This document shows, one piece after another, positions 3,474 to 30,499 of a stretch of DNA of 64,000 nt. Made by a program: the position numbers and the translations under genes. Below the pieces are notes generated by a model. It worked only from the letters and a program-made list of their open reading frames with translations, made no database searches and was not told the origin of the DNA. Origin of the DNA: a virus; the IMG/VR virus record IMGVR_UViG_3300042549_005531, positions 1 through 64,000 of that record. One strand, 5' to 3'. Position 1 is the first letter of the stretch, and the number at the start of each line of letters is the position of its first letter.

Positions 3474-3936
3474 ATATAATTGGTATAAAGAAAATTATCA
3501 AAAACCTGTAGATTTAGTTTTATATAATCAGATATGTTGGGAATTAAACCAAGAAGTAATTGATTATTTAATTTTAGGTGAAGGTAATAAGTTTTATTTT
3601 AATTCAAGATTAGGCTATATATCTGTATATAAGTTTATTAGAGAAATAAAATTAAAAAATGGTAAACTAAATGCTCCTCCTGATTGGGGTAGAACTCGTA
3701 AACTTAAAGCTGAAGGTAAACTAGAAAAAGGTAAAGTAGTTTATATAACTGACAATTACTATGTAGGTTTTAAATGGGTTAAAGAAAAATGTAATGTCAA
3801 AGGACATAACGCATATAAGTTTAAATCTTCTAGAACTAATGGAATTGAAAGTACTACTGGAGCTAACAATAAACTAAGACAAGTTCTTAAAGAACCTTTA
3901 AATCATTTTAAATTTCCTATATATTCTAAAAAATAA
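3436..3936 (+). CDS. Putative virion connector protein, conserved type
   Basis: 166 residues, basic, rich in Tyr, Lys and Asn. It begins with an ARYNWYKENYQKPVDL helix and continues with a compact beta region containing FYFNSRLGYISVYKF and DWGRTRKL. This pattern recurs in hypothetical structural proteins of large Bacteroidota phages, but no precise function is known to me. It lies between the first ring-type protein and the promoter of the next. Met5 (3448) could be the true start, since the first 13 codons lie inside the upstream gene. Confidence 0.6.
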   Translation: MKQTMEPIKSKARYNWYKENYQKPVDLVLYNQICWELNQEVIDYLILGEGNKFYFNSRLGYISVYKFIREIKLKNGKLNAPPDWGRTRKLKAEGKLEKGKVVYITDNYYVGFKWVKEKCNVKGHNAYKFKSSRTNGIESTTGANNKLRQVLKEPLNHFKFPIYSKK

Positions 3937-14160: not shown

Positions 14161-17100
14161 ATGGCAGAAATAGATGAAAATTTAATATTAGGTTTAGATG
14201 ATAATACAGATGACCCTATTGATTATAAAGGTTCAACAAAATTAAAAAAAGTAATGAAACTTCAAGCTGAACAGGATATGATGAATACTGTTAGAAGAGG
14301 TTTATTAAATACTCCTGTTGCAGAAAGTGTTTCTAATTTAGCACCAATAGATTCTTATTGGGAAGAAGGAGAAACTTTATATGATTTAAAAAGAGGACAA
14401 TCTAATTATCTTGCTGAACAACAAGGAAGTCTTATAAAAATAGCTAATAGTTTAGGTCAAGGTGTAGGTACTTTTGGTACAACAATAGCTTCAACATTAG
14501 CTACATTAGGTAGTGCAGGTATAGCTGCTGGTGGTCAAATAGGTGATTTAGTTACTGGTCAAGATAATGTTGATTTTTTAGATTTTACTTTAAACAATCC
14601 TGTTACACAAGCTATTAGTGAATTAGATAAACATATTAAAGAAGAACTACTTCCTACTTATTATACTGATGAGCAAAAAAATAGTCTGTTATCTGCTTCT
14701 ACTCTTACTGAAGGTGTTAACGGTGTTGGGTTTTTATTATCAAATATTGTTCCTAATGCTTTAATTACTAAAGCTTTTGGTAGTTTAGCTAAAACTATTG
14801 CTATGGCTAAAGTTGGTAAATTAACTCCTGCTTTAGAAACAGCAATTATGTCTGGTAAGATTACTTCTCAAGAAGCAGCTAAGATAGGAAGTTTTGTAAA
14901 ACCTTTGTTAAAAACAGGTGAAATAACTGGTGCTTTAGTAGGTAGAGTCGGAGAATCTGCTATGGAAGCTTACGGTACTTACGAACAGTTAATTAATGAA
15001 GGTACTGACGAAGAAACTGCTAAAAAAATGAGAGATAACGTATTTATGGGTAATATGTTATTAGCTACAAGTGATTTTCTTCAAGCTACACGTTGGTTAA
15101 ATAAAGGAGGTATTGCTGATGATATTATAAAAGTAGGTTCTAAAGCTGCAATTAAACCTTCTACTTTTAAAGATAAATTAGGAAGTTTATTATATGAAGG
15201 TGTTACTGAAGCAGGTGAAGAAGGTTTTCAGTTCCTTTTACAAAAAGGTGCAGAAAAAGCAGCTAAGTCAGGTAATTTTGCTTCAGAAGTTATAGGTTCA
15301 ACTGAAGAATTATTCAATACAGTTGAAGGACAAAAGTCAATGTTGTTAGGTGCAGTTCTCGGTGCTGGTGCATCTACTGCATTTGCTGCAATGAATAAGT
15401 CAGAAAAAAATAAATTTCTAAATGAAACTGTAGCTCAAATAAATGCTAATCCTACAATTAAAGATAGATACATAATTAATTCTGAAGGACAAAGAATTAT
15501 AAATCCTGAATTTGAAAAAAGTTCAGAAGAATTTGTTCGTTTTGAAAATATAAAAGAGCAAGCTAAAGCTGAAAATGATATGGAAACATATAAATTAGCT
15601 GAAGATTTACAATTTGCTAATTTAGTTGCTTCTAGAAAAAGAGCTGATTTATTTGATGATTTTGTTATAGAATTAGAAGCTTTAGGTAAAGCTAACCCTT
15701 CTGAAATAAAAGCCATGTTTGGAGAAATGCCAAAAGATGAATTTGGTGATGAAATAAGCCCTTCTCAATTATCAAGAGAGTATATTACTAAAGCTAAAAA
15801 TATTTCTAAAATGATTGATGGTATAGATTCAGTACCTCAATTTAACAATTTATCTTTAGAAGGAAAAAACGTAATAGCTAAAACTTTATTAACTCAAGAT
15901 GCTTTATTAAAGTCATATAAAGATTTACAAATAAAAGTAGATGCTATGGCTTTATCTGAAAATCCTTTAGATTTAGCTAAAGCTACCGATTTAAGAAACA
16001 AAGCAGAAAGTATTGAAAAAGAATACAAAGCTAATACTGATTTATTAAATTCTTTTTTAGCTTCACCAGCTAAAGTTGAAAAAGTTGTTGAGCAAAACGT
16101 AGAACAAGAACTTAAACAACAAGAAAATTTTGTTGAAAAACAAGTAAAGGATTTTAATAATAATAAATTAAAAGTTTCTGAACTTGAATCTCAATTAGAA
16201 AGTTTAACTAGAAATGAAGAAACTGCTGAAAGTAATTATGAAATATTATTACCTAATGGAGATAGAGTTGATATATTAAAAGCTGAAGATAATAGTACTG
16301 TTTTTATAGATAAAGATGGTAATGATGTAACTGAAAATTTTTATAATAAAAATCCTAATGCCAAGATAGTTGAAAAAGGTACTTTAGAATTACTTAAATT
16401 AAAAGTTACTGATGTAGATTTAGATGATTCTCAAGAAGCTCCTGAAGGAACTGTTAGAGATGAATTTAAATTTAAAAAACCTACTTTGTTTTCTAGTTCT
16501 GGCAGAAGTTCTTTAGGTAAAGATGAATTTAATGATTTAGGAGATAGAAGAGATTTAAATATTAATCCTTCACGTAAATTATATTTTGACACTTTAGCTG
16601 AATTATCTAATTCTGATGTACCTTTATCTTTAAAATTAGAAGTAGCTCCTCAAACATTTGAAGGAATTACTTATCCTACTACTATAAGAGGAGTGACTTA
16701 TAAAACTCCACCTATTATAGCAGTATTATATAAAAACGGTAAAGTTGTAGAAAAAGATGGTGTTCGTGCATATACTGTATTAAACGAAGCTAATAATGCT
16801 AATGTTAAAGCAAACGAACAAGAAAAACTTGACTATAATAAGTTTATAGATAATGTAAAAGATAGAGAAGAACAAGGTTTAGAAAGTTATGTTACTGTTG
16901 AAAGTATATCTCCTGGATTTTTAAATCTTAAAAAGGATTTAATGGAAGAACCATTATCTACTTTAAAAGATATACCTGCTGTTACTGCTGGAGGTTATAA
17001 GTTAGCTGTATCTAGGATTGACCTTGTAACTGGAATACCTGTTATAGAACATAATGGTCAAAAAGTAAATGTTAAATGGAGTGGTAGACCTTATATAGCT

Positions 17101-20100
17101 ATACTTACTGGTACTAATAATGGTAAATCTCAATATGTATATCATGAATTACAAACTCGTAATCTTAGTGCTTTTGAAGTAGATAATATTATACTACCTT
17201 TAATTAAAGAATATTTAGAAGGTAATAGAGTTAAAAAAATAGCTGGTAAAGAAGTATCTATTTTATCTTACGACCCTAATGTATATTCTGTATTAGATAT
17301 GTTTTTGTTTTTTGGAAATTCATCTAATAGTAAAACTTCAATGAAGTTTGAAAAACAAGGTGATACTGAAGTTTTATATTTTGCTTCTGGAGAAAACAAT
17401 ACTAAACTATTTGTTACTAAAGATACTTTTGAGGGAAGTATAGACCTTTTAAGAAATGCTTTGTTAGCAAAGAAAAGAACTATAAGTAATAAACATTTAG
17501 GTAATTTTCTTGGAGAAAGAAATTTGCCTATTTTAAAAGATGGTAGTTGGTCAATGAGTAAAACTACATATGCTGATTTAATGTTATATGGAATTCCTTC
17601 AGCATTTCCTCCAGCAGTTTACCATAACATTTCTACTTTAGATAAAAACAATATATTTTTAAACAAGTATGCTATTTTTAATCCTAAGATAGAAGAAAAA
17701 CCTAACACTAAAGTTAAAGCTATATTAAAAGCTACACCTAAACCTGTTATTGTTATTCCAACTGAAGAAGAAAAATCTAAAATTATTAATGGAGAAGTTA
17801 ATGCTTTTCAATTTATTACTTTAACTTCTGAGCAAAAAGATGAATATAGAGAATCAGGTAAAAATATATTACCTGTTCCTGAACATTTAAAGTTTATTAA
17901 TAAATTATACGGTAACTATCTTATAAAATTTGAAAATGGTGAAATTCAAGGTGATAGAATGAACCTTTTAAGTTTTGTAAAAAGTAATGTAGAAACTATA
18001 CCTTTTTATCAAGAAGTTTTAGATTTAAGTAAAGGTGGTCCAGTATTTTCTGCACCTGTTGTTGAAGAAAAAATTGTTCAAGCACCAGAAATAGTTCTAG
18101 AAACAACTGTAGAAACTGTTGATGAAAAAGCTGATATAGAAAAAAAAATACAAGAAGAATTAAATAAACAAACTCCAATTAAAAATGAAAATATAACTGT
18201 AGATTTTGGCGATAATGTATCTGTCAAGTATCAAGTTATTACTTATAAAGATGGTAGTGTAAAAATTTCTACAGGTAACGAAAAATCAAAAAGATATGAT
18301 AAATTGTCTGAAGAAGCTTTTAAAGATTATGCGAAAATTGATTTTGAATCAAATGCAAAAGGTGTTATAAAAACAGAACTTATAAAAGATGATTATACCG
18401 ACAAACAATCTCAAGAAACAAAAGCGTCTATTGAAAAAAGTATTAGAAATAAATATACTGTTGCATTAGAAAGTAAACCTGAAACTGTTCAAGCCCCTAG
18501 TGCTACTAAAAAACCTAATCCTTTTCAAAAACAAAAACCTTTAACTAGAAAAGTAGATTCTTTACCTTATAAACTAGGAAATATAGAATCAGCTAAAAAA
18601 TGGACTCAAGCTAAATTAGGTATAACTCCTGAAGTAGCTGAAGGTTTAATTAAATTAGCTGGATTTAAAGGAGATTATTTTGGTTATTTTAAAAATGGAG
18701 CAATTACTTTATCTGATGTATTAGAAGAAGGTACTGAATATCATGAAGCTTTTCACTTAGTAAGTCAAATGTATTTAAGTCGTACTGAACGTGATAGTTT
18801 ATATGATGAAGCTAGAAAAGTATCAGGTAAAGACATGACTGATTTAGAAGCTGAAGAGTATTTAGCTGAAAAGTTTAGAGATTATGTAATGTCTGATGGT
18901 AAATTAGCATTTCCTACTAAACAACAATCTTTGTTTGGAAGATTATGGAATTTTATTAAATCTTTTTTAAATTTAAATACTGCTACTGTTAATGAAGTAT
19001 TTGGTAAATTAAATGACGGTTATTATAACAAAGCTTCTTACATTAATAGATTAGGTAGAGGTAGTAAAGATTTAACTTTATTTAGTACATTTGAAATATC
19101 TCCTTCTGAAAACAGAAAGATTGATGAAGCTTTACTTTCTTACTTTAGATTATTTATATCTCAAAAAGGAGTAAACTTTGCTGATTTTGAATTAGCTGAT
19201 TCTCTTCCTGAATTTAATACTTATGTTAAAGCTGAAATGTCAAAATATAATTCAGCTTTTAATTTGAAACCTGATGAATTTTTAAATACTTTTAAAGAAA
19301 AAACATTAACTGATTTAGGTTTTGAATTTGAAGAAGATGAAGAAAATAGCGACAATAATGTAAGAAATAGAGGAGAAAACTACGCTGAAAGTAATAAGTT
19401 ATCAGGTTTTACTGGTATGTCTAAAAAAATAGATTTTTTACTTAATACTGTTGTAGACCAAACTGCTGATTATAATGAATATGGACATCAACCTTTAATT
19501 CCTGCTAGTGAAGTAAAAGCTTACCTTGCTAATTTATTAAGCGATACATTTACTTTTGCAGAAATGATGGATAAATTTAATGAGATTTATGATTCTGAAC
19601 CTACTACTGAATTTGAAGGTAGAAATTGGGGATTAGTAGGTCAAATAAAAGAAAGCTTAGGCGATATGAATTCTACTGCAAATCAAGTTTTTCTTCATAC
19701 TCAGTTTTTTGATGCATTAAGTTTAGTTTACCAAACAATGTTAACTCAAATATATTACGGTAATAATAGTAATGTTGTTCTTGATTCAATGAAAGAGTCA
19801 ATTAAAAATAGAATTAGACAAGTTTGGAGAACAGGTTTAATGTCTACTGATATAGTTGAAACTGTTGATGGACAAAGGTTTATTAGAAATTATTCTGAAT
19901 TACAAAAGTTACCAGCTAAAGAATTTGCTGAAAAAGTAGGTATGAAGTTTAATGCACCTTTTGATTCTAATCTTGAAAATCTAATTAGTAATTTTAAAGA
20001 AGCAATAGGAATATTACCTAAAAAGATTGTAGTAATTGATGGTCAAACTTTAAGTGTAACTACTCCTTTTTGGTATGAATCTTCTTTAGAAGAAGCTATA

Positions 20101-23100
20101 TCTGTTAGAGATAAATCTAGTAAGCAAGCTGTAGCTAAATGGAGAAATGCTTTAAATAATTTAATTGAAGCAGATATTGAAACTACAAATTCTATTACTG
20201 AAAATCAATCTAGAAATACTGAAAACGAAACTGTTTATGCTTTTGCTAAACCTTCATTTTTATTTCAAAAATTAGCTGCAATTAAAAAAGGATTAGCTAA
20301 AACTATAACTACTCAAAACTCTAAGTTATGGGATGCTATTGCTCAAGGAAAAGTTAATGTAACTTTAGTTGATGGTCAAAAGTTTAATGAAATAGGAAGT
20401 GAAGGTCAACATATATCTACTCTTACTGAAGAAGAATTATTAATGCATAAAATAATAGGATTGTATGGAGATAAAAATAAATATCCTACAGTTCAATTTA
20501 TGCAGATGGCTGATAAGAAATCAGTATATGGTTTGACTATAAATGATAAAAATTTAATTGTTAAACCAGATGAAGTTACAATTAATGATGATTATCTTGA
20601 AGTACCTGATTCACTTATAAATAGATTATTTGATATATATTTAAACTACAAAGAGTTTGATAACGTATTTGAAGAAAAAGGAATTAATAAGAAGTTTAAA
20701 GTAACTAAAGCTGCTTCTATATTTGATGAATTAGGTGATTTCTCAACTAAAGAAGAATTTTCTAATGCTATCAAGAAAGAATTATATAAAGCATATCTTG
20801 ATGCAATGGAGTTAACTAGAAATTATGTTGGTACAGATAAAACTGGAAAAGATTATACTGTATTAGGTAATTTAGTAAATGATAGTATAACTATAAATAA
20901 AATTGTTGGAGCATTAGTTTCTACTGAGTTTGTTACTAATTTAGAACAAATGAATATCTTTTTTGGTAATCCAGCATTTTATAAAGATTTATTTAAACGT
21001 ACTCCTGCTATTCGTGCTAATGGTCGTATTCCTTCTATTGATTCTAATGTTAATGATTTTATTGTAGATAGCAGAAAACAATTTTACGGAGAATATGAAA
21101 AGAATTTACCTACTGATTCTACTTTATTTAAAGGATTAGTATTTTCTGATGTAGAAGTTGAGTCTAAATACAATGCAGATTATGTAAAATCTTTAGATGT
21201 TACTGGTTATGATAAAGTTAATGCTACTGATGCACAAGGTTTTTCTACATTTCAATTCTATCGTGAATACATGATTAGAACTGGTCAATGGAATGCAAAA
21301 TTAGAAAAACAATTTATAGCTGAAATGCAAGGAAATTCTCTTTCTGATTCTGCATGGCCTCCGTTAAAGTTAGTTCATTTTGGACCAGAAGCTAGTTATA
21401 CTGAAGAATTTATACCTGTATATTATAAGTTTGCTGTTTATCCTTTAGTACCTTCTTTAATTAAAGGTAGAGTTTTAGAGCAAACTAATTTAAAAATGTT
21501 AGAATCAGGTTCATCTATTGGTGTATTTGAAAGTGGTAACAAAGTAGGTACTCTTATAAATAAATCTGATTATTATGGAGAAGTAAATGAAAATTCTATT
21601 CATACTCTTAATATTCAAGATTTAAAAATTCAAGTAGATATTTCTCCTAAAAAAAATAAATGGGAAGTTTTATTTGGTAGTCAGATTCGTAAATTAATTA
21701 CTCAAAATGCAGTTAATGCAGGTAAAGAATTTAAAAACGAAGAAGATTATAACGAATTTCTTAAACTTATAAATGATTTAGTTGAAATAGAAAGTGCTAA
21801 TTTAGCTGAATCTTTAGGTGTATCTTTAGATAGATTAAGAGAAGGGGATTTAGATAGAGATGCTTGGGGTAAATTAATTGATATTTTTAAACAATCAGCT
21901 ATCGAAAGAGAAGAATCTGATAATGTTATATATGGATTAGATTATCTTAAAAGTCAAGAATTAACTATTGATGCTTTACCAAGTAGAAATAAAATTCAAA
22001 ATTTAATGAATGCTTTATTAAATAATAGAATTTTAAAACAAAAAATGTTTGGTAGGTCTTATGTACAAACAAGTTCAGTTGGATTTGAATATGCTACTGA
22101 AGAATCTTTAAGTAAAGCATTAAGAAATGGTGATATATTAGAAGATAGTGAATTTTATAAATCACATTTTGTAAATAAAAAATTTGATAATACTAAAGCT
22201 AGATTAGGTTTTGTTAATAAAGTAGATGATGAAATTTATGTTGCTGAAATATTATTACCTAATTGGTTTAAAGGTAAGTTTAATATTAATACATTAGATA
22301 GTAATTTATTAGAATCTTTAGGTTATCGTATTCCTACTCAAGGTCTTAACTCAATGTTATCTTTTAAAGTAGTTGGATTTTTACCTAAAAATACTGATTT
22401 GTTAGCAGCAGTTCCTTACGAAATTACTGTACAGTCAGGTGGTGACTTTGACGTGGATAAGTTAAATATGTTTTTATATAACTATATAACTGACATGTCT
22501 GAAGAAAAAATCAAAGAATATAATAAAATTAAAAATACAATTACTGATGATGAGATTTTAGATTTATTTATTAAAAATAATGAAAAACCTTTACCTATAC
22601 CTTTAGGTGGTGATTTAGGACGTAGATTTGAAAAGAAACGTTTACAAAATAAACTTTTAACTTTATTAATTAAACGTCTTAAAGACCCAGAAAGATTTGT
22701 TGATTATGTTACTCCTAACTCTGCTGAAAATTTACAAAAACAAGCTCAAGAAATTAATAATGCTCAACAAGAAAAATATAAAGTAACTGTTGATTATAAA
22801 GGTATTAAACAATTTTGGACAGGTACTAATGTTAGAGTAGGTAAAAACTTTTGGTCAGCTAAAGCTGGAGTAGGTCAATCTGCTAGTCAATCTGTATTTG
22901 CTGCACTTACTCAAATATCTCCTTTAGTTCAAAAAGTTTATAGTAATAGATTATTTGTACCTAAAGGTTATTTAAATTTAAATGAAGATAATAAAATTAT
23001 TTTAGGTAAAAAGAATAATACTGAAGGCAAATCTATTATAGATTTAATTGGTAATCAACATCTATCTGCAAATGTGGATGCTGCTAAAACTCCATTTATT

Positions 23101-25869
23101 TTTCAATTAAATGCTAATGGTAAAACTAATGATATTCATTATTATCTTTTAGAAGCAGGAATACCTGATAAATGGGTTAATCGTTTTATGACTCAACCTA
23201 TTATATTAGAGTTTATTAAGAAAACTGCTGAAAATAAAGGTTTAGTTTCTAAATATAGAAGAGTTAATTTAGCTGAAAACAAAACTAAAAATGATATAAT
23301 TCTTGAAGTTAGAAAAATGTTTGGAGGAGAAGGTGTTGATTCTGAATATTTAAAAGCTAATGTAGATTTTAATGGTAAAAGAATACCTACTGCAAATCCT
23401 GAAGGTAGAATTTACGATGAAGAACAATTATTAAGTTTTATTAAAAAACCTATAAACTCTTCACAATTAAATATACTTGATGATTATTTGTTTTATACTG
23501 AATATGCTATGGATTTACGTAAAGCAATTAATTCTTTAAAATTTGATACTCAAGGTGCTGGTAAAAACTTACCTGAAAGTATGATTTACGACTATAACTA
23601 TAAAAAACTAAATGATAATATTTTTGATGGAATTTATACTTTAGTTGACAAAACTATTATACGTCCTTTTAAAGTAAATGTATTAGATACAGCTATTGCT
23701 TTGTACAAACCTTCAGTTGCTGTACATAAAATATTTAATTCAGATATAGCTTTAAAATCATTAATGAACATTCTTGATAAGAATTCTCAATTAAAATCTG
23801 AATCTTTATATAAAATCTATGGAATGTTAACTAACATTATTATTCAAAATAATTTACAAAACAAAAAAGAATGGTTTGATAATAATGTATACGGTGATAA
23901 TAGTGTAAGTAAACAAATATCTAAATTAATTAAGTCTGATGAAATGAAAGGTAATTATCTTTTTGATAATATGCTAATTGTAGATTTTGCTCAAACTCAA
24001 GGTAAACCTGATATTGTTAGATTTGATAATACTATTAGAATTGATAATAATTTAGATAAAGTTATTAACGAAAGCTTTAGAGATTTTAAATTTAAACACC
24101 CAGCTTTGTATACAGATTTAATTAAATTATCTTTGTTTCAAACAGGAGTAATAGAATCTCCAGTATCTTTTTACAAATATATACCTGTTGAGGATTTTGT
24201 AGAAGTTGTTGGAAATCTAACTAAAAACTCTTTAGTAGAATATCCAGATATGATAGAAAAAGTAATTCAAAATTTACCTACATTAAAAGGTCTTGCTAAT
24301 AAGATATCTTATAGTAAAATACTTGAAGGTAGAATAGGATTACCTGATTATCTTGAAATTCAATATAATAATAATCCTGAATCTTACATTACTAAATTTG
24401 ATTTTAAATTAAACGAATTAGGTTTATATAAATTAAATAGTATAAACGAAGAGTCATTATCTTATTACAGAATACCTATTACTGGAGCTTCTAATTTATA
24501 TAATGGTATTATAGGTGATGATGTTGATGTTAAAGCTAAATTTGATAATGATGAAGAAACTGATACTCAAGAAGAAACTGAACGTCCTACTTCTAAATCA
24601 TCAACTTCAACTTTTCCAGTTAAACCAGGAGTAGAAGAACTATTTAATACTAATCCTGAATTAGCTAATATAGGTACACAAGAAGAATATTCTCAATATT
24701 TAGATTCTGTATTTCCTAATAGTCAAGTAAAAGATATTGTTTATCATGGTAGTCCTAATAAATTTGATAAATTTAAAATTGGTGATATAGGATATCATTT
24801 TGGGACTAAACAAGCTGCTAAAGACAGAATAGAAAACGTTGAAAATCCTATTATTTACAATGTAATCTTAAATATTAATAATATTGCTAAAATTTCTGAT
24901 ACAGGTACACATAAACCAGATTATATTGCCGAAGAACTTTATAATAAAGGATTGTTTAAAAAATATCCTGATTTAAAATATGATATAATGGATAGTCAAA
25001 TTGTTCATGAGGATAAAATAGGATATGATTTAATTAGAGAAAACTTAGAAGTTGATGGATTAATGTATATTAATGAGTATGAAGACAAAGGTTCAGAATC
25101 ATTTATTGTATTTGAACCAGAACAAATTCACATATTAGGAAATAAACAAGATATAGAAGGATTTAAAAAGTTTACAGAAAAACCTGATACTCAAGAAGAA
25201 AGTGATAATATGGAAAATTTAAAATTTTTACCGAATAAAAATGAAAAAATTAACATTTATGCTGGAAGTAACGAAAATGCTGATTTAAGTAATTTTGCTA
25301 TTAGACCTTTTACAATTAATGTAGAAACTTCTTCTGGTAATAAACAGTATACTTTTCAATCTGTAGAACAAGGATTTCATTTTCATAAAGCAGTAATAGC
25401 TAATAATTCGCAAATAGCAGCACAAATTTTAAAAACTACTAATGGAGGAACATTAAGAAATTTAACAAATAGAAATAATCTTAAACTAACTCCTGAACAA
25501 GTTAAAGAATGGGATAATACTTCTAAATCAATAATGTTGAATTTAATGTACGATTCTTATATTCAAAATCCTCAAGCTGCTCAAAAATTATTAACTACTG
25601 GAAATGCTATTATAACTCATACCCAAGATAATACAAGATGGAAAACAGATTTTCCTCAAGTTGTCATGACTGTAAGAGATATGTTAAGAGAAGAATCTCA
25701 AAATTTAAAATCTCAATTAACTTGGGATTCTTTATCAGAAGATGATAAATTTGGTATAGAAAGAGCTGGAATATCTCCAGAAGAATTTGAAGACATGACT
25801 GAAAAACAAAAAGATATGGCAATTGAATGTTATGGTTCTAAAAAAATAAATAATTATGGGAAATTATAG
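14161..25869 (+). CDS. Giant virion RNA polymerase/polyvalent protein
   Basis: 3902 residues. The N-terminus has Gly/Ala-rich hydrophobic stretches near 100-125 and 400. A zincin-like HEAFH motif is at 1528-1532. ILKQKMFGRSYVQ at 2624-2636 looks like the lysine-bearing first barrel segment, and SGGDFDVDK (Asp 2762, 2764, 2766) is the DxDxD metal site of the double-psi beta-barrel RNA polymerases found in crAss-like virions (Cellulophaga phage phi14:2 gp66 type). Near 3525-3662 is an ADP-ribosyltransferase-like domain: VYHGS with H3529, then GYHFGTKQAA and EPEQIHIL. Residues 3698-3842 resemble the NADAR/YbiA fold (IYAGSNENADLSNF, FQSVEQGFHFHKA, TRWKTDFP). The protein would be injected and transcribe early genes, carrying enzymatic passengers. 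Ends in TAG; overlaps the next gene by 14 bases. Confidence 0.85.
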   Translation: MAEIDENLILGLDDNTDDPIDYKGSTKLKKVMKLQAEQDMMNTVRRGLLNTPVAESVSNLAPIDSYWEEGETLYDLKRGQSNYLAEQQGSLIKIANSLGQGVGTFGTTIASTLATLGSAGIAAGGQIGDLVTGQDNVDFLDFTLNNPVTQAISELDKHIKEELLPTYYTDEQKNSLLSASTLTEGVNGVGFLLSNIVPNALITKAFGSLAKTIAMAKVGKLTPALETAIMSGKITSQEAAKIGSFVKPLLKTGEITGALVGRVGESAMEAYGTYEQLINEGTDEETAKKMRDNVFMGNMLLATSDFLQATRWLNKGGIADDIIKVGSKAAIKPSTFKDKLGSLLYEGVTEAGEEGFQFLLQKGAEKAAKSGNFASEVIGSTEELFNTVEGQKSMLLGAVLGAGASTAFAAMNKSEKNKFLNETVAQINANPTIKDRYIINSEGQRIINPEFEKSSEEFVRFENIKEQAKAENDMETYKLAEDLQFANLVASRKRADLFDDFVIELEALGKANPSEIKAMFGEMPKDEFGDEISPSQLSREYITKAKNISKMIDGIDSVPQFNNLSLEGKNVIAKTLLTQDALLKSYKDLQIKVDAMALSENPLDLAKATDLRNKAESIEKEYKANTDLLNSFLASPAKVEKVVEQNVEQELKQQENFVEKQVKDFNNNKLKVSELESQLESLTRNEETAESNYEILLPNGDRVDILKAEDNSTVFIDKDGNDVTENFYNKNPNAKIVEKGTLELLKLKVTDVDLDDSQEAPEGTVRDEFKFKKPTLFSSSGRSSLGKDEFNDLGDRRDLNINPSRKLYFDTLAELSNSDVPLSLKLEVAPQTFEGITYPTTIRGVTYKTPPIIAVLYKNGKVVEKDGVRAYTVLNEANNANVKANEQEKLDYNKFIDNVKDREEQGLESYVTVESISPGFLNLKKDLMEEPLSTLKDIPAVTAGGYKLAVSRIDLVTGIPVIEHNGQKVNVKWSGRPYIAILTGTNNGKSQYVYHELQTRNLSAFEVDNIILPLIKEYLEGNRVKKIAGKEVSILSYDPNVYSVLDMFLFFGNSSNSKTSMKFEKQGDTEVLYFASGENNTKLFVTKDTFEGSIDLLRNALLAKKRTISNKHLGNFLGERNLPILKDGSWSMSKTTYADLMLYGIPSAFPPAVYHNISTLDKNNIFLNKYAIFNPKIEEKPNTKVKAILKATPKPVIVIPTEEEKSKIINGEVNAFQFITLTSEQKDEYRESGKNILPVPEHLKFINKLYGNYLIKFENGEIQGDRMNLLSFVKSNVETIPFYQEVLDLSKGGPVFSAPVVEEKIVQAPEIVLETTVETVDEKADIEKKIQEELNKQTPIKNENITVDFGDNVSVKYQVITYKDGSVKISTGNEKSKRYDKLSEEAFKDYAKIDFESNAKGVIKTELIKDDYTDKQSQETKASIEKSIRNKYTVALESKPETVQAPSATKKPNPFQKQKPLTRKVDSLPYKLGNIESAKKWTQAKLGITPEVAEGLIKLAGFKGDYFGYFKNGAITLSDVLEEGTEYHEAFHLVSQMYLSRTERDSLYDEARKVSGKDMTDLEAEEYLAEKFRDYVMSDGKLAFPTKQQSLFGRLWNFIKSFLNLNTATVNEVFGKLNDGYYNKASYINRLGRGSKDLTLFSTFEISPSENRKIDEALLSYFRLFISQKGVNFADFELADSLPEFNTYVKAEMSKYNSAFNLKPDEFLNTFKEKTLTDLGFEFEEDEENSDNNVRNRGENYAESNKLSGFTGMSKKIDFLLNTVVDQTADYNEYGHQPLIPASEVKAYLANLLSDTFTFAEMMDKFNEIYDSEPTTEFEGRNWGLVGQIKESLGDMNSTANQVFLHTQFFDALSLVYQTMLTQIYYGNNSNVVLDSMKESIKNRIRQVWRTGLMSTDIVETVDGQRFIRNYSELQKLPAKEFAEKVGMKFNAPFDSNLENLISNFKEAIGILPKKIVVIDGQTLSVTTPFWYESSLEEAISVRDKSSKQAVAKWRNALNNLIEADIETTNSITENQSRNTENETVYAFAKPSFLFQKLAAIKKGLAKTITTQNSKLWDAIAQGKVNVTLVDGQKFNEIGSEGQHISTLTEEELLMHKIIGLYGDKNKYPTVQFMQMADKKSVYGLTINDKNLIVKPDEVTINDDYLEVPDSLINRLFDIYLNYKEFDNVFEEKGINKKFKVTKAASIFDELGDFSTKEEFSNAIKKELYKAYLDAMELTRNYVGTDKTGKDYTVLGNLVNDSITINKIVGALVSTEFVTNLEQMNIFFGNPAFYKDLFKRTPAIRANGRIPSIDSNVNDFIVDSRKQFYGEYEKNLPTDSTLFKGLVFSDVEVESKYNADYVKSLDVTGYDKVNATDAQGFSTFQFYREYMIRTGQWNAKLEKQFIAEMQGNSLSDSAWPPLKLVHFGPEASYTEEFIPVYYKFAVYPLVPSLIKGRVLEQTNLKMLESGSSIGVFESGNKVGTLINKSDYYGEVNENSIHTLNIQDLKIQVDISPKKNKWEVLFGSQIRKLITQNAVNAGKEFKNEEDYNEFLKLINDLVEIESANLAESLGVSLDRLREGDLDRDAWGKLIDIFKQSAIEREESDNVIYGLDYLKSQELTIDALPSRNKIQNLMNALLNNRILKQKMFGRSYVQTSSVGFEYATEESLSKALRNGDILEDSEFYKSHFVNKKFDNTKARLGFVNKVDDEIYVAEILLPNWFKGKFNINTLDSNLLESLGYRIPTQGLNSMLSFKVVGFLPKNTDLLAAVPYEITVQSGGDFDVDKLNMFLYNYITDMSEEKIKEYNKIKNTITDDEILDLFIKNNEKPLPIPLGGDLGRRFEKKRLQNKLLTLLIKRLKDPERFVDYVTPNSAENLQKQAQEINNAQQEKYKVTVDYKGIKQFWTGTNVRVGKNFWSAKAGVGQSASQSVFAALTQISPLVQKVYSNRLFVPKGYLNLNEDNKIILGKKNNTEGKSIIDLIGNQHLSANVDAAKTPFIFQLNANGKTNDIHYYLLEAGIPDKWVNRFMTQPIILEFIKKTAENKGLVSKYRRVNLAENKTKNDIILEVRKMFGGEGVDSEYLKANVDFNGKRIPTANPEGRIYDEEQLLSFIKKPINSSQLNILDDYLFYTEYAMDLRKAINSLKFDTQGAGKNLPESMIYDYNYKKLNDNIFDGIYTLVDKTIIRPFKVNVLDTAIALYKPSVAVHKIFNSDIALKSLMNILDKNSQLKSESLYKIYGMLTNIIIQNNLQNKKEWFDNNVYGDNSVSKQISKLIKSDEMKGNYLFDNMLIVDFAQTQGKPDIVRFDNTIRIDNNLDKVINESFRDFKFKHPALYTDLIKLSLFQTGVIESPVSFYKYIPVEDFVEVVGNLTKNSLVEYPDMIEKVIQNLPTLKGLANKISYSKILEGRIGLPDYLEIQYNNNPESYITKFDFKLNELGLYKLNSINEESLSYYRIPITGASNLYNGIIGDDVDVKAKFDNDEETDTQEETERPTSKSSTSTFPVKPGVEELFNTNPELANIGTQEEYSQYLDSVFPNSQVKDIVYHGSPNKFDKFKIGDIGYHFGTKQAAKDRIENVENPIIYNVILNINNIAKISDTGTHKPDYIAEELYNKGLFKKYPDLKYDIMDSQIVHEDKIGYDLIRENLEVDGLMYINEYEDKGSESFIVFEPEQIHILGNKQDIEGFKKFTEKPDTQEESDNMENLKFLPNKNEKINIYAGSNENADLSNFAIRPFTINVETSSGNKQYTFQSVEQGFHFHKAVIANNSQIAAQILKTTNGGTLRNLTNRNNLKLTPEQVKEWDNTSKSIMLNLMYDSYIQNPQAAQKLLTTGNAIITHTQDNTRWKTDFPQVVMTVRDMLREESQNLKSQLTWDSLSEDDKFGIERAGISPEEFEDMTEKQKDMAIECYGSKKINNYGKL

Positions 25870-28800
25870 ATGTATAAGACCTACTTTTCCTAAAGTAGAA
25901 GCATTAAGTAAAAAATTAGGGTATTCTTCTGCAGCAACTGCTATTAAAATAGAAGATTGGCAAGATGCTAATAATAAAGGTTATAGTGTTATTCCTACTA
26001 TGTTTGATATGGGAATGATATCTTTACCTTGGGGAAAAAATATAGAACTTTATAAAAGTTTTAAATTATTAACTAATCAAGGTGAACGTAAACTTTTTAC
26101 TAAAGAAACAGCTACTAAATTCGCTGATAGTTTAAATGAAAAAGGTTATGATTATGCTGCTGAACCTGTTAAGATGAGCATTGATGGTAGCAAATGGTCT
26201 GTAAATTTAGCTAAAAAGTTATGGACTAGTAGAGATGGTGATTCTAATCAAATGTCTTTGTTTCAAGAAGAAGAAGGCATAGATTATAATAGTAAAATAT
26301 TAGACTTTTTAGGTGTTCCTTTTACTAATTCAACTGATGTGTTAGATAAAATTGCTAACAGTGATAGTGGTATGAGTGGTATTGCTAAAAAATTACTAAA
26401 ATTAGATTTAAATATACCTATTGAAGTAATTAGCGTACCTTATTTTACTAAAGACAATGTACCTGATTCTAAATTTACAAAAGATTTAGATGATGATTTT
26501 AAAGGAAGTGCTTTTTTTGACCCTGATGAAAATAAAATATATGTAGCTGCTGGAACAAAACGTAGTCCTATTTCTTTAATGTTACATGAAATATTACATG
26601 GTTATACTGCTAATTTTATTAAAAACAATCCTAATAATGAAAATGTAAAAAATCTAAATAGATTATGGTTACATTTAAAAAATAACAAAGATAATATTAC
26701 TAAACAATATTCTATTTTTGATGTGGATGAAGTTTTAACTCATGTTTTTACTGACTCTATTTTTATTAATGATTTAAAAAACTTACCTGCAACTAGAAGT
26801 TCTTTTAAAAATTTATGGGAAGAAATACTTCAAATATTTAAAAATATTTTTAAAATAAAAGATGTTAGTTTATTTGATGAAATATTTGCTGTAAGTAGTA
26901 ATATAGTAGAAGAAAGTATGATAGCTGATAAATCATATTCTTCTGGTAAAGTTTCATTTCAACAAGAATCAGAAAGTCAAGCTACTATATATAATGATTT
27001 ATTAAAAAATAATATTACTTTATCAGCAGATAATAAAACGTATATAGTTAATGGCGAATCAGGTTTTTCTAGAATTAGTACTTTAATTCAAAAGAATAGA
27101 AATTTAAATAATTTAACTGATACTACTGCTCAAACATTAGGTGATGTATTTCATGCTATTGCTGCTAATAGAATAGCTAGTTCTTTTCCTGAATATAATA
27201 AACATTTTAACGGAATACCTTTAGAAGGAGTTAGTGAAGGTACAGTAATAAATGTTCATGCTATTATTGACCCTATTATTAATAAAGCTAAAGAAGAAGG
27301 TAGCGTTTTAGTTACTGAATTACCTATTGCTTCTATAAAGAAAAAGAAAGCAGGTACTATAGATTTATTAGAGATAACTAAAGATAAAGGTTTAAAGATG
27401 TTAGATTACAAAACTTCAATGCGTAGTAAAAATCCAACTACTAAGTATAAAAAGTTTAGAGGTAATTCTGAACAACAAGAACATTATAAAGAAATGATAG
27501 AAGAAACTTTGCAAGAGAAAAAAAAGAAAGTAGACTTTCAAGAATTACTTTATGTCAAAGCTTCTACTAAAAATGGTATATCTTATACTGTTTCTGAAAG
27601 ACTTCCTGTATTAGCTCAAACTTCTAAAAATAAAAAGATTAACACTATGTTAAGTTCTTTATTTAAACAAGTAGAAAAATTAGTAAGTACTAGAAATAAA
27701 AATAATTCTGATAAAATAGATAGACTGATAGCTGCTAAAACTTCTTTAATGAGTAAACTTCAACAAGATATATCAAATGAAGAAATTTTAAGAAATGCTT
27801 TTTCTGATTTAGCTGCTATAGAAAGTGCTTTATCTTTAAGTGATGATATTGATGCAAACTATCGTGATTTTAAAAATGATTTAATAACATATTCAGAATT
27901 AAATAAATATATCAAAACTGATAATAGTAAAGATGAAGCTATGATTAAAGAAATAGTTGGTAGAGCTTCATTATTATATCAAGAATTAAACGATAAAGTT
28001 CAGAATAAACTTGTTCAAAATGTTTTTCAAGATTTAAGTTTTAAAGGAAGTCCTATTGAAACTGAAGATGATGTGTTAAAGCCTATTAAAGACACTAATG
28101 TTTTTCAAGGTTTTGCTTTAGGTGCATCTTATTCTGAAGTTCCTATTATAGCTTCTATGTATAGACAAGTGCAAGAAAGATTGGCAATAGGTAGAAATAA
28201 AGCTAGAACTTTAGGAAGTAAATTACAAAAATTAGTTAGCGATTTACAAACTTTTACTGGTAAAACTGGTGAAGATATGTACAGTATGTTTTTACAAACA
28301 GTTAAAGGTAAAAAAACAGGATATTTAATTCGTGAGTTTAAAGGTGAATTTTATATTGAAGCTAAAGAAGCTATTTCAAAAGGAGATGTTTCTTGGTTTT
28401 CTGAAAATGCTACTTTTGATAATGAAAAATATTTACTAGCTAAATCTAGACAACAAGAAATGTTAGAAAATTCTACATCAGAAGTTGCTCGTAAATTAGC
28501 TTATATAAAATCATCTGAAAAATATGCAGATTTAACTAATGAAAAACAACAAGAATTAGCTGAAAAATTTGTTAAAGAAGATAATGTCAAATATTTACAA
28601 GAATGGGTTAAAGACAATAAAACAATAACTAAATTTTACAAACCTAAACTTAAATGGAGAGATTCTAAATGGGTAGATATTAAAGAAGGTAAATATAAAG
28701 GTACAGTTGTAGAAGAATTCTATGATTTGTATACTTATGTTATGGAAGAAATTGAAGATGGAGGTTTACCTTTTGATATATCTGAAAACTTTATACCTGA

Positions 28801-30499
28801 ATTTAAAAAAGATTTACTAAGTAAAGTTATTAATAACGGAATAGGCAGTTTAAAATTAGGAGAATCTTTAATTGATAGTATAACTATTAATTTTGATGAA
28901 GCTGAAGTTAATAAAGTTGACCCTTTTACTAAAGAACTTATTAAGAGTATTCCTGTATTAGGTAAAAGAAAATTTGACCCTAATAATACAAGAGAAAACT
29001 TTGTTCAAAAAGATAAATCTTATGATTTAGGTTATAGTCTAGCTGTATTTTATGAATCAGCAGTAAGATATCAAGAACTTAAATCTATAGAAACTACATT
29101 AGAAATAGCTAAAAATGTATTACAAGAACAAGAAAAAACAATAACTAATGTTGTTGGAGAAGAAGTTAAAGAAGGTTACGGTAATGTCAAGTTATCTAAA
29201 AATCTAGAAAATGAAATTAAAAGATTTGAGAATTTTATTGATACTACTGTATATGGTAAAACTATAGGTAAAGAAACTGGAGTTAAAGTTACAGGTAATG
29301 GTATTACTGAAGCGTTAGGTTTAATACCTAAAGGAACAGAAAAAATAATATCTTGGAGTAAATCAAAAGATATTTTACTTAAATATACTGGCTTAAATAA
29401 TATAGGTTTTAACTTATACTCTCCTGTAACTAACATACTTGGTGGTAAATCAATGCAGTTATTAATGGGAGTTGGAGGAAAATGGTATAGTAGTAAAAAT
29501 TATGGTTTTGCTTCACTTGTTGTAACTGCTGGACCATTTAGTGAATTAAACGAAGATGTCATTAAAGCTAACAAATTTGTTGAAATGTTAAATGTAGAAA
29601 TTAATGAATTTGTTAAAGATGAATTTAATAAAATACGTTCTGAAAACAAATTGTTACATAAAATTCCTGGACCATATTCACTTATGCAATGGACTGAAGC
29701 ACATTTACATAAAGCAGGTTTAATTGCAATGATTAAATCTAACAAACATTCTATTAAATGGGATGATTGGAAACTAGTTAAAGGAGAATTGCAATATACA
29801 GGTGAAGAACAAATGAGTGAAGGAGTTAAAGAATCATTTAGACAAAAAGTTCTTCATGTTAATGGTAGAGCTTTAGGTAATATGAATCCTGATGATAAAA
29901 TTTTATTAAAAAAATGGTTTCTTGGTAGAGCAGTAATGCAACATAGAGGATGGATGCCAGCAATGATTCAATCTCATTTTGGTAAACGTCAATATGATTA
30001 TCAATTACAAGAATATATTGAAGGTAGATTTGTATCATTAACTAAATTTATTTTTACTAAATCGTTAAATTGGAGTAAATTAGATGATATAGAAAAAGCA
30101 AATGTTAAAGAATCTGTTGCTGAATTTAGTATACTAGCTGCTGCTACATTATTATTATCTGCTTTAAAAGGAGATGATGATGATGAAGAAAGACGTAAAA
30201 GATTAGCGTATGTTATTAGAGTAACTGATAGATATGTAGCTGAAATGGGATTTTTTACTCCTTTTGAAATAGAAGGTAAAGGTCAAATTCTAATATCACC
30301 TGCACCAGCAGTATCTACTGTTCAAAGTGTAGGAAGAATGTTTAATAATTTTGGTACTTTAATTTTTGGTGATGAAGAAAGTTCTGAAAAAGCACGTAAA
30401 AAATTAGGAAAATCTGTAACAAGAACTATTCCTATATATTCTCAAGGAGAAAGATTTATAAACGAAGCTTTACAAATTCAAATTGAAAATGAAGATTAA
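25856..30499 (+). CDS. Giant virion protein with zincin and PD-(D/E)xK nuclease-like domains
   Basis: 1547 residues. HEILH at 244-248 is a second zincin-type metal motif. From about 425 to 570 there is a RecB/Cas4-like nuclease signature: GDVFHAIAANR (H433), then GTIDLLEI (D503) and LDYKTS (D517, K519), the H...D...DxK order of PD-(D/E)xK enzymes. The remainder is largely helical. Near 1425 there is a hydrophobic helix (EFSILAAATLLLSALKG) followed by an acidic DDDDEE patch. It follows the RNA polymerase polyprotein with a 14-base overlap in another frame and is the last gene of the late arm. A co-ejected internal virion protein is likely. Whether it also supplies an RNA polymerase part is unknown. 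Confidence 0.75.
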   Translation: MGNYRCIRPTFPKVEALSKKLGYSSAATAIKIEDWQDANNKGYSVIPTMFDMGMISLPWGKNIELYKSFKLLTNQGERKLFTKETATKFADSLNEKGYDYAAEPVKMSIDGSKWSVNLAKKLWTSRDGDSNQMSLFQEEEGIDYNSKILDFLGVPFTNSTDVLDKIANSDSGMSGIAKKLLKLDLNIPIEVISVPYFTKDNVPDSKFTKDLDDDFKGSAFFDPDENKIYVAAGTKRSPISLMLHEILHGYTANFIKNNPNNENVKNLNRLWLHLKNNKDNITKQYSIFDVDEVLTHVFTDSIFINDLKNLPATRSSFKNLWEEILQIFKNIFKIKDVSLFDEIFAVSSNIVEESMIADKSYSSGKVSFQQESESQATIYNDLLKNNITLSADNKTYIVNGESGFSRISTLIQKNRNLNNLTDTTAQTLGDVFHAIAANRIASSFPEYNKHFNGIPLEGVSEGTVINVHAIIDPIINKAKEEGSVLVTELPIASIKKKKAGTIDLLEITKDKGLKMLDYKTSMRSKNPTTKYKKFRGNSEQQEHYKEMIEETLQEKKKKVDFQELLYVKASTKNGISYTVSERLPVLAQTSKNKKINTMLSSLFKQVEKLVSTRNKNNSDKIDRLIAAKTSLMSKLQQDISNEEILRNAFSDLAAIESALSLSDDIDANYRDFKNDLITYSELNKYIKTDNSKDEAMIKEIVGRASLLYQELNDKVQNKLVQNVFQDLSFKGSPIETEDDVLKPIKDTNVFQGFALGASYSEVPIIASMYRQVQERLAIGRNKARTLGSKLQKLVSDLQTFTGKTGEDMYSMFLQTVKGKKTGYLIREFKGEFYIEAKEAISKGDVSWFSENATFDNEKYLLAKSRQQEMLENSTSEVARKLAYIKSSEKYADLTNEKQQELAEKFVKEDNVKYLQEWVKDNKTITKFYKPKLKWRDSKWVDIKEGKYKGTVVEEFYDLYTYVMEEIEDGGLPFDISENFIPEFKKDLLSKVINNGIGSLKLGESLIDSITINFDEAEVNKVDPFTKELIKSIPVLGKRKFDPNNTRENFVQKDKSYDLGYSLAVFYESAVRYQELKSIETTLEIAKNVLQEQEKTITNVVGEEVKEGYGNVKLSKNLENEIKRFENFIDTTVYGKTIGKETGVKVTGNGITEALGLIPKGTEKIISWSKSKDILLKYTGLNNIGFNLYSPVTNILGGKSMQLLMGVGGKWYSSKNYGFASLVVTAGPFSELNEDVIKANKFVEMLNVEINEFVKDEFNKIRSENKLLHKIPGPYSLMQWTEAHLHKAGLIAMIKSNKHSIKWDDWKLVKGELQYTGEEQMSEGVKESFRQKVLHVNGRALGNMNPDDKILLKKWFLGRAVMQHRGWMPAMIQSHFGKRQYDYQLQEYIEGRFVSLTKFIFTKSLNWSKLDDIEKANVKESVAEFSILAAATLLLSALKGDDDDEERRKRLAYVIRVTDRYVAEMGFFTPFEIEGKGQILISPAPAVSTVQSVGRMFNNFGTLIFGDEESSEKARKKLGKSVTRTIPIYSQGERFINEALQIQIENED

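Follow-up and report, generated by a model that had tools for sequence, protein, structure and literature searches.

The 64,000-nucleotide (nt) stretch analysed here (the window; positions 1 to 64,000 of the IMG/VR virus record IMGVR_UViG_3300042549_005531) encodes a giant crAss-like virion RNA polymerase (RNAP) of 3902 amino acids (aa) whose C-terminal end carries an ADP-ribosyltransferase (ART) domain followed by a NADAR domain. The two are add-ons in their own right that are often exchanged, and each moves among phages independently of the other. In most of the lineages found, NADAR occurs as a crAss-like RNAP module; the ART is an exchangeable cassette with ends conserved at the DNA level and a hypervariable body. 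By sequence and model, the NADAR domain shares the fold of the phage-type (gp30.3-like) NADARs and all of their active-site residues that were sampled. It is probably, by analogy with them, a guanine-ADP-ribose (guanine-ADPr) hydrolase that would de-ADP-ribosylate guanine near the polymerase. An earlier note on this DNA saw in the two domains a writer-eraser pair; a dedicated pair is not supported. The features concerned are:

14161-25869, + strand: crAss-like giant virion RNAP protein, 3902 aa; the open reading frame (ORF) is open throughout and its product is a homologue of phi14:2 gp66.
22438-22458, + strand: RNAP catalytic motif GGDFDVD, aa 2760-2766, aligned with four other crAss-like RNAPs.
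24572-25712, + strand: stretch of 1141 bp holding ART and NADAR, replaced by 70 bp in the sister phage L002 (blastn breakpoints 24571/25713 in the window, 12251/12322 in L002).
24730-25131, + strand: ART-PolyVal domain, aa ~3524-3657 (Pfam, alignment of the HFGT lineage, fold search).
24745, 24796, 25081 and 25099, + strand: candidate ART active-site residues His3529, His3546, Glu3641 and Ser3647, respectively (alignment of the HFGT lineage).
25243-25695, + strand: NADAR domain, aa ~3695-3845 (Pfam, fold and the conserved residues Glu3736 at 25366, Lys3743 at 25387 and His3820 at 25618).
25717-25866, + strand: conserved RNAP C-terminal tail (LTWDSLSEDDKFGIERAG...), common to the sister L002 with 82% aa identity over aa 3852-3895.

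The 3902-aa protein has both marks of a crAss-like virion RNAP: the DFDxD motif, present as the double-psi-barrel motif GGDFDVD at aa 2760, and homology to gp66, the catalytic RNAP subunit of Cellulophaga phage phi14:2 (9e-29). Only two Pfam families, NADAR PF08719 and ART-PolyVal PF18760, were returned by hmmscan for the whole protein. The order of domains is polymerase, ART-PolyVal, NADAR and a conserved tail of 50 aa (aa 3853-3902); the RNAP of locus L011 has a similar end. The earlier note had located the two domains at the end of an RNA polymerase (aa 3525-3662 and 3698-3842), in agreement with the Pfam boundaries (aa 3526-3657 and 3705-3823) and with the short tail that follows NADAR. 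It had also described the protein as ejected. The protein belongs to a class known to be packaged: the RNAP-associated giant proteins gp47, gp49 and gp50 are present in PhiCrAss001 virions, as seen by mass spectrometry (PMC10172136). On that ground, the window protein can reasonably be expected to be delivered together with the genome.

The sister contig IMGVR_UViG_3300032335_001059 (L002) is 93-95% identical to the window in DNA along the polymerase, and its RNAP shares 77% aa identity over aa 39-3474. It has neither ART nor NADAR, and the polymerase ends in the same tail in both phages. ART and NADAR are two discrete modules, recently gained or lost together. The window NADAR is in addition 90.9% identical in DNA to that of locus L203, while the RNAP cores of these two phages share only 27% aa identity.

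The NADAR match (5.7e-13 in the full protein) lies above the curated Pfam cut-off. An AlphaFold2 model obtained with 12 aligned relatives as input has a predicted local distance difference test score (pLDDT) of 89. Its only strong neighbours are NADAR proteins: 8bau, with bound ADP-ribose (Z score 16.6), E. coli YbiA 2b3w (16.1) and the G. lovleyi NADAR 8bat (8.2), and the next, unrelated, structure scores only 2.6. The structure model thus confirms the NADAR/YbiA fold that the earlier note had read from the sequence. Matches to influenza NS2 and BTB models (E 0.01-0.08) were discarded as chance. The catalytic residues of NADARs have been set out by Schuller et al. (E43/K50 in P. nicotianae, E88/K95 in E. 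coli C7; PMC11543638). E3736 and K3743 match this Glu/Lys couple with the identical seven-residue spacing. H3820 lies in the last strand, at the position occupied by Glu in YbiA and by Asp in DarT1-linked (BC4488) NADARs; the profile places it opposite E125 of 8bau, with a one-residue ambiguity relative to YbiA. The Asp of the D171 position, typical of DarT1-linked NADARs, is absent and a THT motif takes its place. A His here is a mark of phage NADARs (PMC11543638). All three active-site residues are present in the window, and E, K and H, as well as the TH dipeptide, are invariant in all 47 independent crAss-like NADARs. A weak match to PF08010 (Phage_30_3) is obtained for the window domain (0.048) and also in 9 of these 47 relatives; T4 gp30.3 hydrolyses guanosine-ADPr in vitro (PMC11125620). 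The region 25225-25866 also matches the PADLOC candidate defence model PDC-M42C (5.8e-10), so that defence finders may mistake this phage protein for the product of a host defence gene.

The ART domain is real yet less certain than NADAR, and its fold is supported with moderate confidence by sequence and model. In the whole protein PF18760 is matched at 1.2e-5 with 26.5 bits, against a curated cut-off of 31.2; scanned in isolation, the domain reaches 34.5 bits (4e-8), above this cut-off. The model has a pLDDT of 63.6. Its neighbours belong mostly to the ART superfamily (ParT, MbcT and PARPs, with diphtheria-toxin structures also found by Foldseek), at Z scores of 6-6.8. Structure prediction, suggested in the earlier note as a check, leans towards an ART fold in the nature of the neighbours, at a lower confidence than for NADAR. 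The best Foldseek match is a chain of the cyanophage A4 pre-ejectosome, a phage ejectosome protein (9k3a); the searches made found no literature on this structure. Among the next matches is the anti-CRISPR structure 6kyf, which we take to be AcrIF11. A sequence search of the PDB gave no ART match, and no DarT appears among the structural matches listed for the model, which leaves DarT kinship possible.

The lineage of the window ART is defined by the motifs YHG, HFGT..AA, Y.N..E and S.IVF.P, common to crAss-like phages, Tenacibaculum phage pT24, virus Rctr197k and Tunturiibacter phage Tunturi_5. H3529, H3546, N3638, E3641 and S3647 are invariant in the alignment of this lineage. Because of this invariance, His3546 (GYHFGT) is the more likely second triad residue and Glu3641 (NEYE) the more likely acid. 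The ART assignment of the earlier note stands, with a different triad: by alignment it reads H-H-E and not H-Y-E. The PARP E988-like site is occupied by a Ser in the window ART. Among 50 ART copies, the His of YHG is present in all, the E988-like position is E, Q or D in 28, and either this residue or the NxxE acid is found in 36.

The ART is flanked by two short conserved caps:

24634-24753, + strand: N-terminal cap (N-cap) of the ART cassette (PGVEELF...YSQYLDSVFPNSQVKDIVYHGS), ~35 aa ending in KDIVYHG (per-position conservation in 51 copies, DNA-level sharing).
25108-25173, + strand: C-terminal cap (C-cap) of the ART cassette (VFEPEQIHILGNKQDIEGFKKF; per-position conservation, DNA-level sharing).

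Between the 50 distinct copies the median DNA identity is 83% in the N-cap and 80% in the C-cap (VFEPEQIHILGSKQDIEGFKKF), while 89% of pairs are without detectable DNA similarity between the caps. Both caps reach at least 80% DNA identity in 413 pairs, of which 365 show no match in the body. Where amino acids agree, the same codon is used at rates of 0.76 and 0.74 in the caps, compared with 0.57 in the RNAP cores of the same loci and 0.55 expected from codon usage. The ART set was partly collected with peptide patterns lying in the caps; ten copies found via the RNAP rather than via the caps give rates of 0.79 and 0.82. A milder version of this effect is observed at the N-terminal end of NADAR (0.71). 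The cap and body pattern suggests homologous exchange through the caps.

The distribution of both domains was surveyed in relatives. The whole 409-aa tail, used as a query against viral contigs, found no close relatives, and separate domain alignments were therefore used. Among 80 crAss-like RNAP loci retrieved via the DFDxD region, Pfam identified NADAR in 12 records, 9 of them within the RNAP protein itself. ART-PolyVal was also identified in 12 records, 11 of them in the RNAP protein or in the giant ORF beside it; in the twelfth (L050) it lies in a 5005-aa ORF of the region, in which the motif pattern did not register DFDxD. A later NADAR scan collected 63 loci, which form 55 clusters; the RNAP is visible in 50 of them. 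NADAR and the RNAP motif share one ORF in 47 independent lineages, with NADAR on the C-terminal side in 41; in the uncultured phage cr126_1 (Steigviridae), it is found at the N-terminus of the RNAP. At three loci (L179, L242 and L245) the ART is present twice close to the RNAP, in some cases as direct neighbours. Other domains were observed on RNAP tails: superfamily 1 (SF1)-type helicase domains at L080, L060 and L064 and in phages cr118_1 and cr50_1, whose RNAPs are labelled 'DNA helicase' or 'exonuclease V' in public records, and a histidine phosphatase domain (His_Phos_1, 4.6e-30) in one tail of alignment A6. At L009, the segment preceding NADAR (upstream of nt 9965; VFGSNPEGRHGAGAAKYA...YALPTKD) looked Macro-like by eye and was not reported by Pfam.

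Do ART and NADAR travel together? Once near-identical loci are removed, ART accompanies 12 of 50 NADAR-bearing and 10 of 56 NADAR-less RNAPs (p=0.29). The RNAP-selected set alone contains three clusters with both, about chance level (Fisher p=0.15). On the tails, Pfam detects ART in 3/47 with NADAR against 1/51 without (p=0.28). The two domains share one ORF in five lineages and in three different orders: RNAP-ART-NADAR in the window, RNAP-NADAR-ART at L009, L143 and L185, and ART-NADAR-RNAP at L206. A conserved ART-NADAR pair was not enriched in either the RNAP- or the NADAR-anchored set, and an early impression of pairing (from L009, cr130_1 and cr131_1) disappeared once the sample was larger. 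The absence of significant co-occurrence, the varying order and the sister phage without either domain all count against the functional pair proposed in the earlier note. NADAR tails differ from NADAR-less tails in two other Pfam families, an AlkB-like 2-oxoglutarate-Fe(II) oxygenase (7/47 against 1/51, p=0.02) and SLOG cpYpsA (8/47 against 1/51, p=0.01). These p values are uncorrected for the number of families and the control tails are shorter on average, so that they serve as indications.

The explanation to which we give a little more than even weight is that the RNAP tail carries swappable counter-defence modules, with NADAR cleaning guanine and the ART modifying host targets in parallel. 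The C-terminal tail of crAss-like RNAPs would be a docking site for exchangeable effectors, of which the window phage now holds ART and NADAR. As family knowledge suggests, the RNAP protein would be ejected with the genome and its NADAR would free guanine in DNA or RNA of ADP-ribose by hydrolysis. This is the in vitro reaction of T4 gp30.3 and of the other NADARs assayed in the literature consulted (PMC11125620). The first enzyme to read the incoming phage DNA would thereby come equipped to clean bases of DarT1-like guanine ADP-ribosylation. The AlkB-like domains seen on other tails are compatible with a role of NADAR in nucleic-acid or base repair. The ART probably modifies a host molecule, thought to differ between phages because the ART body is swapped, and the two enzymes would work in parallel rather than as a dedicated pair. 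We propose more tentatively, and think it rather unlikely, that the ejected RNAP is a chassis for a shuffled arsenal. In this arsenal, NADAR (often with AlkB-like or SLOG domains) would repair ADP-ribosylated or alkylated template during transcription, and a polymorphic ART with a cap-recombined body would reach phage-specific targets. Such swapping of ART bodies on an RNAP chassis would be the phage-side counterpart of polymorphic toxin tips.

Several observations weigh against swappable counter-defence modules acting in parallel. T4 gp30.3, the nearest tested NADAR type, gave E. coli no protection from DarT1 (PMC11125620), and an anti-DarT1 role of NADAR is therefore not secured. Iyer et al. 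hold that phage NADARs mainly target soluble ADP-ribose derivatives (PMC9503650). The confidence of the ART model is modest, with Z scores of 6-7 that are below the safe level of the aligner. The enrichments of AlkB and SLOG come from 7 and 8 tails, respectively, out of 47. The co-occurrence tests are small, with odds ratios above 1, and ART and NADAR do share one ORF in the five lineages mentioned above.

This last point also favours a dedicated pair, in which the ART would modify guanine or another base of host nucleic acid while the adjacent NADAR would protect or reset that of the phage, as in DarT1-NADAR or YarT-YbiA. The two domains are adjacent in the window and in L186 and, besides the single-ORF lineages, lie in neighbouring ORFs in cr130_1, cr131_1 and others; guanine-specific ART-NADAR pairs exist in bacteria (PMC11125620, PMC11543638). 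However, the majority of ARTs are found without NADAR and the majority of NADARs without ART, in addition to the lack of significant co-occurrence and the varying order. The searches run showed no DarT-like character of the ART, and the NADAR carries the His instead of the DarT1-linked Asp. We consider such a pair improbable. A serious alternative, although still an unlikely one, is that NADAR destroys soluble immune signals derived from ADP-ribose (e.g. Thoeris-type cyclic ADP-ribose) and produced by host NADase defences at entry. Iyer et al. argued for this role of phage NADAR, Macro and SLOG domains (PMC9503650), and SLOG, which handles nucleotide or NAD-derived ligands, is a significant neighbour of NADAR on the tails. 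The characterised NADARs, in contrast, act on guanosine-ADPr in nucleic acids, to which the AlkB-like neighbours also point, and the literature searched gave no direct evidence for soluble NADAR substrates.

It is about equally unlikely that the ART is degenerate or purely a binding domain, leaving NADAR as the sole active enzyme. The Ser at the E988-like position and the His replacing Tyr in the window ART, the acid counts of 28/50 and 36/50 and the low model confidence would agree with this. However, the His, His, Asn-x-x-Glu, Ser and HFG motifs are invariant in crAss-like phages, pT24, Rctr197k and Tunturi_5, and the His of YHG is kept in 50/50 copies. We give very little weight to a YbiA-like housekeeping function, clearing damaged riboflavin intermediates or other reactive N-glycosides outside any host conflict. 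It draws on the strong fold match to YbiA and on the activity towards riboflavin intermediates with which E. coli YbiA was first described (as cited in PMC11543638). The His subtype is phage-specific (PMC11543638), and a domain joined to an ejected polymerase, in the company of AlkB, SLOG and ART modules, is more in keeping with conflict.

The window protein can be compared with several known systems. Its NADAR resembles T4 gp30.3 (Pfam Phage_30_3) in fold family, phage origin and the last-strand His at the Glu/Asp position; gp30.3 was tested as a protein of 208 residues, whereas the window NADAR is a module on a giant virion RNAP. As in the ART-PolyVal polyvalent proteins (Iyer et al. 2017, PF18760), the protein is multidomain and expected to be ejected, and the ART shares HFGT and NxxE with pT24, Rctr197k and Tunturi_5. 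It differs in its carrier, a crAss-like RNAP cassette, and in DNA-conserved ends around an exchangeable body. The DarT1-NADAR and YarT-YbiA toxin-antitoxin systems also associate an ART with a NADAR-superfamily hydrolase, but the searches run revealed no DarT or YarT kinship, the window NADAR is of the His subtype and pairing is inconsistent across phages. In addition to the DFDxD motif and homology that relate it to crAss-like virion RNAPs (phi14:2 gp66; PhiCrAss001 gp47, gp49 and gp50, with RNAP-associated proteins in PhiCrAss001 virions), the protein has NAD/ADP-ribose modules, unmentioned for this protein in the literature searched. T4 Alt is also a packaged, ejected ART; this likeness is conceptual, without a demonstrated sequence relation, and Alt is a separate internal head protein that modifies host RNAP, while the window ART is fused to the RNAP of the phage itself.

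Other regions of the locus are also variable or carry additional motifs. Between the two sister phages, the mid-protein RNAP linker holds unrelated segments (window 18142-18474, L002 5855-6154). The L002 module (MQPDNIAKIINGTKTTTTRS) had an ASCH-like look by eye, which was not confirmed, with no Pfam match. An HExxH zincin-like motif (EEGTEYHEAFH, aa 1522-1532, window 18724-18756) is kept in the sister phage; this region has no Pfam match and is possibly a metallopeptidase for self-processing. The RNAP gene is followed by:

25856-30499, + strand: next giant ORF, 1547 aa; in relatives the ART cassette is often located in this adjacent ORF.

Around window position 26270 this ORF is without ~1.5 kb present in the sister (L002 12881-14407), a third module site at which these two genomes, 93% identical, differ.

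Phage polyvalent proteins, packaged ARTs and phage NADARs are already known (PMC5512222, PMC9503650, PMC7824862). No paper describing NADAR or ART on crAss-like RNAPs, or an ART with constant ends and a variable body, was found in the literature searched, which covers few subscription journals. As far as this literature shows, NADAR as a module of crAss-like RNAPs and the ART cassette with conserved ends and hypervariable body are new. They also call for caution in annotation: NADAR, AlkB-like, SLOG, helicase and ART domains lead to misleading names for RNAPs ('DNA helicase', 'DUF1768 protein').

The Crassvirales are among the most abundant human gut phages, and these findings bear on the question of how they withstand host defences on entering the cell. 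With its constant ends, the ART cassette supplies a natural series of 50 variants of an effector that is presumably ejected; labelling could reveal their targets. The presence of NADAR on the polymerase that reads the genome makes it testable whether guanine-ADPr in the template blocks the virion RNAP and whether NADAR clears this block.

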